64,000 nucleotides of DNA from Balneolaceae bacterium (GTDB lineage Bacteria; Bacteroidota; Rhodothermia; Balneolales; Balneolaceae): contig JAEPQE010000001.1 in the NCBI GenBank assembly GCA_017640665.1, positions 1,443,262 through 1,507,261 of the forward strand. The letters run 5' to 3'. The notes under the pieces were generated by a model. The model made no database searches and had not been told where the DNA came from. It worked only from the letters and a program-made list of their open reading frames with translations. Numbering within the stretch: position 1 is the first letter of the stretch; every line of letters starts with the position of its first letter. The translations under genes and the position numbers were made by a program. Of this stretch, positions 34,487 to 39,535 are shown in pieces.

Positions 34487-34876
34487 CTATTCTTCAAACA
34501 TTCGTTTAAAGATGGGTTTGAGAAGTAAAACTGCTAACCCGGAACCAAGCGCATCGGCTATGAAGTCATACAATTCAGGACTACGATTTGTAGGCAGGAT
34601 GAACTGAAAGAGTTCAATCAATAATCCGTAAAAAAGTCCCAGAGCAAATACATTGAACAGGTTGGGTTTTGTTTGTTTCCAGAGTGCGCGGACTACTCCA
34701 AATAGAAAAGTCCAGGCAGCGAACGCAAATAGATGGGCTACTTTGTCATAGCTCCAAATATTGATGTTGGAAAGGCTATTTGCAGGGAATAGCGTTCCTA
34801 CAAGAATTACTATAGTAACCAGAACAAATAGTAAAACTGTTAGCTTTCGGTATTTAAATAATAGCGTCTTGATGAT
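34487..34876 (-). CDS. VanZ family membrane protein with no canonical start codon
   Basis: An open frame of 131 codons begins immediately after the nnr stop (34883-34885) in the same frame. It encodes four hydrophobic helices and the VanZ signatures: LFPANSLSNINIWSYDKVAH, then LIELFQFILPTNRSPELYDF and DALGSGLAVLL. The N-terminal helix (KLTVLLFVLVTIVILV) is needed for the family, but no ATG, GTG or TTG occurs upstream of it. Only ATC ATC (34876, 34873) and, later, ATT or CTG codons are available. Possible explanations are a rare AUC/AUU start, stop-codon read-through from nnr, or a base error. The given start is therefore tentative. VanZ proteins are linked with glycopeptide/lipoglycopeptide tolerance or phosphatase-like membrane functions. 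Confidence 0.7.
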   Translation of the reverse strand: MIKTLLFKYRKLTVLLFVLVTIVILVGTLFPANSLSNINIWSYDKVAHLFAFAAWTFLFGVVRALWKQTKPNLFNVFALGLFYGLLIELFQFILPTNRSPELYDFIADALGSGLAVLLLKPIFKRMFEE

Positions 34877-34882
34877 TGTGTC

Positions 34883-36373
34883 TTAAATAAGATCCAGTGG
34901 CTCCAACGTTTTATTGGAGGATAATATATGGTGGTCTGCTTTTTCTTTTCCATCTAAAAGTGCAAAAACTGCCGCAAGTTCCGGTTTTTTTTCCTGAAGC
35001 CAGAATCCGGCTGTTTTTCCAGCCAAGACATCCCCAAAACCAGCTCGGGAAAATATACGGGTATCATACCCGGTAACTAAGGTTTGGTTTTCACTCACAA
35101 TTACAGAAGGTAGCCCTTTTGAAAGGATAGTTGCATCAAGTTGCGATGCTAAATTTCGAGCTATGGTTAATCTGTCATCCGAATCGATCCCTGTAAGCGT
35201 TTTTAGTTCGCCGGGGTGAGGGGTAAGGATCCATTCAGCATATTTCGGTTTTTGTAACAAGCTTTCTTCAGATAAAGCAAACAGAGCGTCTGCATCAATT
35301 ACAACTTTACCTGAAAACTCAGAAAGAAAATATCTTACAAAACTAACAGTCTCTGGGTTTCTCCCTAAACCAGGGCCAATCAACACAGAACCTTGCTTCT
35401 CAGAAACTAAGGAGGTAACATCCTTTAAATGATTCGAGGAGAAATAGGAGTCAGTAGAATCCCCAACCGGTTTTTTGATAATCTGAACAAGGTTCTTCTC
35501 ATAAATCTCAAGCAAACCTTTTGGGGTGATGAGTACCACGCCTCCAAGCCCGGTCGACCAGGCACTTTTGGTTGCAAGTACTGCGGCTCCGGTTAACCCT
35601 TCTGATCCGGCTATTACATATAACACACCACCATCATATTTATGCTTTCTTTGGGGTGATGAAGTACGAAGCCTGTCTACCCATTCAACATCGATAAGGA
35701 AGGTATCGGAATTTTTGAACGATGAAGGAAAAGGTAGTTCACAGAAAATAATCTCTCCGCAATACTCATATCCTGAATTCATAAAGAATCCCTGCTTTAA
35801 TGTTCCAAAGGCAAGCGTATAATCCGCTTTAATTGCCATTCCAAGAACTTTTCCTGAATCTGAACACAAGCCTGTTGGGATATCCATTGCAAAAACCGGA
35901 AAATCTTGATCATTTACCCATTCGATAACCTTTTTGTAAGGTGATCTGACTTCCGAATTTAATCCCGTGCCCAGCATCCCATCTATCATGAAGTCGAAAG
36001 ATGCGTTCATTGGTAGCTCATCCGGAGAGGAATAGAAATGAATATCATGATCGAGCTTTTGAAGGAGCTTCAGGTTTTTGCTGCAATCTTTAGATAAGCC
36101 CTCCATCCCCGAAACAAAAAGAACAGAACTTTTGATACCATGCTCTCTAAGTATTCGGGCTACAACCAGCGCATCTCCGGCATTATTTCCTTTCCCACAA
36201 ATAAAAAGACCATGAGTATCGGTTGTAACTTGTTGAAGGATAAAATCAGCGGCGCGAGTCCCCGCGATTTCCATTAGGGTAAAGCCATCAATTCCAAATT
36301 CAGAAATAGTACGCTCATCAAGCTTCCTACTCCCTTTGGCAGTGAACAGCTGATATGAGTGTGGTATCTTCAT
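34883..36373 (-). CDS. nnr: Bifunctional NAD(P)H-hydrate epimerase/dehydratase
   Basis: 496 residues, a fusion. Residues ~1-215 form the epimerase (NAXE/YjeF-N): FICGKGNNAGDALVVARILR for substrate binding, and VFAMDIPTGLCSDSG. Residues ~225-490 form the ADP-dependent dehydratase (NAXD), with VLIGPGLGRNPE, LTPHPGELKTLTG, VIDADALFALSE and SRAGFGDVLAGKTAGF, the ribokinase-like phosphate loop. Together they repair damaged NADHX/NADPHX in the cytoplasm. The protein is followed in the same frame by a VanZ-like open frame after the single TAA stop. It lies 9 bp after proS and is probably read from the same transcript. Confidence 0.93.
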   Translation of the reverse strand: MKIPHSYQLFTAKGSRKLDERTISEFGIDGFTLMEIAGTRAADFILQQVTTDTHGLFICGKGNNAGDALVVARILREHGIKSSVLFVSGMEGLSKDCSKNLKLLQKLDHDIHFYSSPDELPMNASFDFMIDGMLGTGLNSEVRSPYKKVIEWVNDQDFPVFAMDIPTGLCSDSGKVLGMAIKADYTLAFGTLKQGFFMNSGYEYCGEIIFCELPFPSSFKNSDTFLIDVEWVDRLRTSSPQRKHKYDGGVLYVIAGSEGLTGAAVLATKSAWSTGLGGVVLITPKGLLEIYEKNLVQIIKKPVGDSTDSYFSSNHLKDVTSLVSEKQGSVLIGPGLGRNPETVSFVRYFLSEFSGKVVIDADALFALSEESLLQKPKYAEWILTPHPGELKTLTGIDSDDRLTIARNLASQLDATILSKGLPSVIVSENQTLVTGYDTRIFSRAGFGDVLAGKTAGFWLQEKKPELAAVFALLDGKEKADHHILSSNKTLEPLDLI

Positions 36374-38251: not shown

Positions 38252-39535
38252 ATGAATAGAATTATTATCCTTGTCGCCTTAATAGTACTAACAGCACAAT
38301 CAAGAGAAACGAAAGCTCAAACCTTCCAGCTCGATGAAAATGGAGTTACAATAACATGTGATGGTGCAAGTGTTGGAGTTACTGGCGAAGTAGGAGGGAC
38401 TATCTATACCGCTGTTGATGATAATTCACTTCGGGATAGTGTGAGTACAGGAGCTGATTTGACAGAGGTTTGTACTAGTTTGGTGACAAACTTGTCTGAA
38501 TTATTTGAGGGCAATATATCTTTTAATCAGAATATAAGTGTCTGGGATGTAAGTTCGGTAGTAGTAATGAATTCGCTTTTTTCACAAGCAGAGTCTTTTA
38601 ATCAGGATATTAGTAATTGGGACGTAAGTTCAGTGGAAAATATGGAAGAACTTTTCTTTAGAGCCAATTCTTTTAATCATGACATTAGTAGTTGGGATGT
38701 TAGTTCTGTTACAAATATGAGTAGTTTATTTGCGCAAACAAATCTATTCAATCAGGATATTGGCAATTGGGATGTTAGCTCGGTTACAAATATGGAAGGG
38801 GTATTTAATGCAGCGCTCGCATTTGATCAGGATATCGGAAGTTGGGATGTTAGTTTAGTTACTGACATGTTTGCAATGTTTTCCGGTGCTTCATCTTTTA
38901 ATCAAGATATAAGTGCTTGGGACGTAAGCTCAGTGACCAAAATGCAGGCAATGTTTAGTAGAGCGACTAACTTTAATCAAAATATTGGTAATTGGGATGT
39001 TGGTTCAGTTGTGAATATGAGGCTAATGTTTCGACAGGCTACTTCTTTCAACCAAGATATTGGAAGTTGGGACGTAAGCGCAGTCACTACTATGCTCAAT
39101 ATGTTTGATGGAGCAACCATTTTTAATCAGGATCTAACAAATTGGTGTGTTGAAAAAATTACTTCTGAGCCAATAGGTTTTTCAACTGAAAGCGCCCTTA
39201 CAGAAGCTAACAAACCCATTTGGGGTACATGTCCGGAACCTGTATCGAATGAATACAGTGAGAATATTCCAGAGAAATATAAGCTTCTGCAAAACTATCC
39301 AAACCCGTTCAATCCAAGTACACAGATTCAATTTGATCTTCCTGAAACAGGTAGAGTAAAGTTTTCTGTTTATAATATGCTTGGTCAGCAAGTAGCGGTT
39401 CTTTTGGATGAAGTGAAAACTGCAGGTTCACATTCCATTAATTTTGATGCAGGTGAGCTTACTTCAGGAACTTACATCTATCGCCTAAGTACTCCGGATG
39501 GTGTTATTTCCAAACAAATGATGCTAATTAAATAA
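38252..39535 (+). CDS. BspA-type repeat surface protein with T9SS sorting domain
   Basis: 427 residues: a signal peptide (to ~22), a short leader, eight 25-residue repeats (~91-290) of the form [20 protein letters not shown], then a partial ninth. This is the DUF285/BspA leucine-rich-like repeat found in bacterial adhesins. The C-terminal ~90 residues are a T9SS type A sorting domain: [52 protein letters not shown], and final KQMMLIK. It is a likely exposed adhesin. It stands alone, with a TM2 gene 102 bp downstream. Confidence 0.93.
38522..39157 (+). repeat. 75-bp tandem coding repeats in the BspA gene
   Basis: Eight 75-bp units plus a partial ninth encode FNQDIxxWDVSSVxxM. Units differ at third positions and in the spacer after Met, so they are old and maintained by protein constraint. 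Confidence 0.9.

Follow-up and report, generated by a model that had tools for sequence, protein, structure and literature searches.

Initiation at a codon other than AUG, GUG, or UUG is well known from infC, the gene for translation initiation factor IF3, which starts with AUU, AUC, or AUA and is autoregulated. The pcnB gene of E. coli reportedly starts with AUU. Apart from infC, few bacterial genes are known to have conserved non-canonical starts, and genes of this kind are missed or shortened by gene finders that allow only ATG, GTG, or TTG. In Streptomyces, sigR is reported to start with GTC and infC with ATC, and initiation of sigR is described as repressed by IF3, keeping its product low (PMC5472188). 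Conserved starts that lower yield have likewise been reported in Staphylococcus, namely AUU in cvfC1 and AUA in ccpN, both of which are described as having extended Shine-Dalgarno motifs (PMC13009471). The gene examined here, which encodes a VanZ-like membrane protein, has a probable, conserved AUC-type start of the kind seen in infC, sigR, cvfC1, and ccpN, and is a new, VanZ-family member of that set; its odd feature is that no Shine-Dalgarno match precedes it in the lineage of the genome under study. Like sigR, it is a gene other than infC with a conserved non-canonical start. It differs in that sigR is the first gene of a coupled pair, with N-terminus and IF3 dependence reported from experiment (PMC5472188), whereas vanZ is the second gene and is known by comparison.

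The window is a stretch of 64,000 nucleotides from a Balneolaceae genome (GCA_017640665.1, contig JAEPQE010000001.1; hereafter G000). The locus of interest comprises the following features:

34883..36373, minus strand: nnr, bifunctional NAD(P)HX epimerase/dehydratase, upstream of vanZ (matches to the YjeF_N and Carb_kinase profiles)
34874..34882, minus strand: gap of 9 nt between the nnr stop and the proposed vanZ start
34874..34876, minus strand: preceding ATC, an alternative initiator (tandem ATC ATC)
34871..34873, minus strand: proposed initiator ATC, the second of the two, matching ATC or ATT in 11 other genomes
34487..34873, minus strand: vanZ-like gene, taken to begin at the proposed AUC; 128 codons plus TAG

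The nnr gene ends with TAA (34885-34883, minus strand), and the frame that follows (34882-34487, minus strand) reads DTIIKTLLFKYRKLTVLLFVLV...MFEE, 131 amino acids, to a TAG at 34489-34487. This frame matches the Pfam VanZ family (PF04892; E 1.2e-8, 36.1 bits), passing the curated cut-off of 30.1 and bearing out the family assignment made in a preliminary description of this DNA; the gene differs from the family in its start codon. Two TonB_C genes, recognized by profile matches, lie downstream. The preliminary description had further claimed that the VanZ frame is in frame with the nnr TAA and has no usable ATG, GTG, or TTG, and re-reading of the window confirmed both statements. After the nnr stop the codons are GAC ACA ATC ATC AAG ACG CTA TTA TTT AAA TAC, and no ATG, GTG, or TTG occurs ahead of the third membrane helix. 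A downstream canonical start was rejected because the earliest in-frame candidate is 87 codons in, past the conserved DKxxH motif.

A whole-genome search recovered vanZ in 86 of the 92 genomes of the family, and its start was read in all 86 (30 loci from the family search and 56 fetched regions). A canonical start is absent from 12 of these genes, which belong to G000, to G040 and G039 of the same genus, to G036, to seven genomes of genus group g2, and to G034. All 12 have ATC (11 genomes) or ATT (G039) 41-42 codons ahead of DKxxH. Among the other 74 genes, 72 have ATG or GTG 38-50 codons ahead of the motif; the remaining two are a locus cut by a contig end (L132) and one that has an ATG and lacks the DKxxH anchor (L166). 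Codon 41 before DKxxH is ATG in G032 and GTG in G033, and these starts stand five codons ahead of a conserved KY, the exact place of the Balneola-type ATC. The second ATC of the window stands six codons ahead of KY, within one codon of the G032 and G033 starts, and the exact start column moves by one codon between subgroups. The codon is doubled as ATC ATC in G000, G040, G008, G036, and G003 and as ATT ATT in G039; G034 and the Balneola group have ATC once. Further cases came from one scan of public genomes, in which 44 of 54 named loci were read (L032-L075); seven of the 44, including that of Balneola sp. EhC07, have no canonical start and carry ATC 41-42 codons before the motif. When start type was mapped on an nnr tree built from 29 genomes, at least three changes were required, at least two of them forced by strongly supported branches. 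Close relatives with ATG and GTG versions of vanZ constitute a natural experiment. Comparison with the same locus in relatives had been proposed in the preliminary description as a check, and its outcome is that the non-canonical codon is conserved. No report of this vanZ start was encountered in the literature searched, which excluded most subscription journals.

Codon choice at this position departs from that of isoleucine codons elsewhere in the same genes. The other isoleucine codons of the 12 genes (n = 132) are ATC in 39 cases, ATT in 60, and ATA in 33, and four other mostly isoleucine columns of vanZ have mixed codons. The chance of finding ATC at 11 of 12 starts is p = 1.3e-5 if genomes are treated as independent, and p = 1.2e-3 when the five close Balneola genomes are collapsed into one (7 of 8), other shared ancestry being ignored. 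Between G000 and G040 the synonymous sites of vanZ are saturated (pS 0.84, pN 0.14), and ATC ATC AAG is identical. Over 127 codons compared between these genus mates, mismatches number 34, 9, and 75 at codon positions 1, 2, and 3, a distribution by which the vanZ frame is judged to be coding. Several genera have retained AUC even as synonymous sites became saturated, a pattern suggestive of selection for weak initiation. Taken with coding constraint and the match in position to the ATG and GTG of relatives, the conserved codon makes an AUC start well supported by comparison, and the AUC of vanZ is probably genuine, a weak start signal that evolution has maintained.

Three options had been offered for this locus in the preliminary description, and only one, an AUC or AUU initiator, was sustained, given ATC or ATT in 12 of 86 genomes and a canonical codon (ATG in G032, GTG in G033) at the equivalent position. 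The suggestion of a wrong base, with ATG as the real codon, draws on the general point that a codon from a single genome can always be wrong, and nothing else was found in its favor; a sequencing or assembly error is effectively excluded because eleven further genomes of several genera, along with the named records, show ATC or ATT at this place. Read-through of the nnr stop, yielding an Nnr-VanZ fusion in which vanZ would need no start of its own, is compatible with the window, G040, and G034, where the frames match and a single in-frame stop (TAA, TAA, and TAG, respectively) separates the genes. Those are 3 of the 12 AUC/AUU genomes, however. The phase from nnr stop to ATC is 0 in four of the 12 and 1 or 2 in the other eight, and in G005, which has phase 0, two in-frame stops intervene. 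Such a fusion is very unlikely because nnr is out of frame in eight genomes and a second stop is present in a ninth; moreover, the bases between the nnr stop and the ATC are not conserved, and relatives with canonical starts have a separate ATG or GTG for vanZ.

Initiation at another near-cognate codon (the first ATC, AAG, or ACG), or in a different frame with a subsequent frameshift, is improbable, if less so than a fusion. The tandem ATC ATC of five genomes and ATT ATT of one, with AAG and ACG next in the window, supply candidate codons, but only one ATC is present in the Balneola group and in G034, and AAG and ACG are not conserved; since nnr lies in phase 0, 1, or 2 relative to vanZ, no common frameshift fits. 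It is also highly improbable that vanZ is decaying in this clade after loss of its start. A start codon by the usual rules is indeed missing and the window gene has no Shine-Dalgarno match, but purifying selection contradicts decay: five pairs from the Balneola clade give a low dN/dS of 0.07-0.14 (0.12-0.60, and noisier, for the first 25 codons alone), third-position bias is evident, and internal stops are absent. Family motifs are kept over a saturated synonymous distance, and G032 and G033 have a canonical codon (ATG and GTG, respectively) in the corresponding position, which also argues against decay.

Signals for ribosome binding at vanZ vary within the AUC/AUU group. In the 17 nt upstream of the window gene there is no Shine-Dalgarno match, and pairing with the anti-Shine-Dalgarno is -0.4 against a mean of 0.2 for shuffled sequences; a match is also absent from vanZ of G040, G008, G036, G039, G003, and G034. 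Five close Balneola genes show moderate pairing (-4.0 to -5.7 versus -2.2 to -3.1 for shuffles). The 16S 3' end is intact in G040 and has one mismatch, outside CCTCC, in G003. It was not found by pattern in G000 or G039, and tRNA-Ile(GAU) was absent from the tRNAs found in scanned G000 loci; the two observations on G000 suggest that the rRNA operon is missing from its assembly. G000 encodes three Met(CAU) tRNAs, one of which is a normal-looking initiator with a CAU anticodon and a GGG/CCC stem. A special initiator tRNA was considered and rejected, as none of the 30 of 36 tRNA loci scanned (six were not scanned individually, some of them lying inside scanned loci) held an initiator-like tRNA with another anticodon.

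The infC gene provides a positive control for AUC starts in the Balneolaceae. Of 83 genomes with a match, 30 loci were read (L086-L115), and in all 30 the start is ATC GCN behind GAGG; one locus (L109) additionally has an ATG 14 codons upstream. Gene callers limited to ATG, GTG, and TTG would misplace this start. Both infC and, probably, vanZ have a conserved near-cognate start in the same family, but infC encodes IF3 and pairs strongly with the anti-Shine-Dalgarno (-5.8 to -7.2 in 13 loci), whereas the window vanZ encodes a membrane protein and lacks a Shine-Dalgarno match.

The frequency of such starts was surveyed by comparing 784 kb of G000 with 791 kb of G040 (469 ortholog pairs, about a fifth of the genome), a survey that is blind to genes also having a canonical codon within their first 12 codons. 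It flagged 27 pairs. Of these, 17 were re-read codon by codon, and 15 share an ATG, GTG, or TTG; only vanZ and an Omp85 gene have no plausible shared start. The other ten flagged pairs comprise aspS and four more with ATG in both genomes, one that overlaps a tRNA array, and four short ones. Among real genes here the start-less pattern seldom arises by accident, as it occurs in only 2 of the 469 pairs. The Omp85 gene (L175:773-2806, in G000 outside the window) matches the POTRA and Omp85 profiles and has no ATG, GTG, or TTG ahead of its signal peptide core. GAGG precedes by 7 nt an ATT in G000 or an ATC in G040, pairing with the anti-Shine-Dalgarno is strong (-6.4 and -6.8), and G039 has ATT. 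Most other relatives read have TTG or ATG; in the G031 homologue (L271), too, the first 33 codons include no canonical start. With infC and Omp85 beside vanZ, initiation at AUC or AUU appears to be rare in this lineage, yet not unique to one gene.

Overlapping or nearly touching gene ends are the classic coupled arrangement, and in the canonical relatives read the nnr-vanZ gap is -4 to +3 nt. In the AUC/AUU group it is 3-20 nt. IF3 is reported to repress non-canonical starts (PMC5472188) and, in an in vitro survey, to disfavor weak third-base pairs (PMC10158994). Re-initiation in E. coli is described as helped by a Shine-Dalgarno sequence without needing one, as declining with distance, and as lowered by excess IF3, less so where a Shine-Dalgarno sequence is present (PMC2268962). 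From these reports we infer that ribosomes departing from nnr initiate at the vanZ AUC at a low level modulated by IF3. The ordinary initiator tRNA, with its CAU anticodon, would read the AUC, and initiation would presumably be weak and, as in infC, governed by IF3. With no Shine-Dalgarno match at the window gene, termination-reinitiation from nnr would be the likeliest source of ribosomes, and those that end nnr 9 nt upstream probably re-initiate at the AUC. Comparison establishes the conserved codon, the coding constraint, and the positional match to the ATG and GTG of relatives, from which use of the AUC and coupling to nnr are inferred; control by IF3 is suggested by the identity of the codon. 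Overall, it is highly likely that vanZ is functional and is started weakly by the AUC at 34873-34871, or possibly by the preceding AUC, at a level expected to be set by IF3 and with nnr as the likeliest supplier of ribosomes. Several points count against this reading: an AUC without a Shine-Dalgarno sequence should be very weak, and infC and Omp85 do have one; the tandem ATC gives two candidate start codons, and the start column is offset by one codon between subgroups; and the gap in G003 is 20 nt, whereas termination-reinitiation is reported to drop steeply with distance and to be nearly eliminated once about 20 nt intervene (PMC10666635). The window gene, 9 nt behind a stop and with no Shine-Dalgarno match, makes near-cognate re-initiation testable.

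More speculatively, and on balance doubtful, envelope genes started by AUC or AUU (vanZ, Omp85, and others, to a total of perhaps about ten at the surveyed rate) may form an IF3-sensed group beside the AUC-started infC, with vanZ as the extreme member that has no Shine-Dalgarno sequence and would be fed only by re-initiation from nnr. Elsewhere in the window, positions 38252-39535 (plus strand) encode a repeat protein rich in units of the FNQDIxxWDVSxVTNM type, with a C-terminal tail that we take to resemble a secretion sorting domain.
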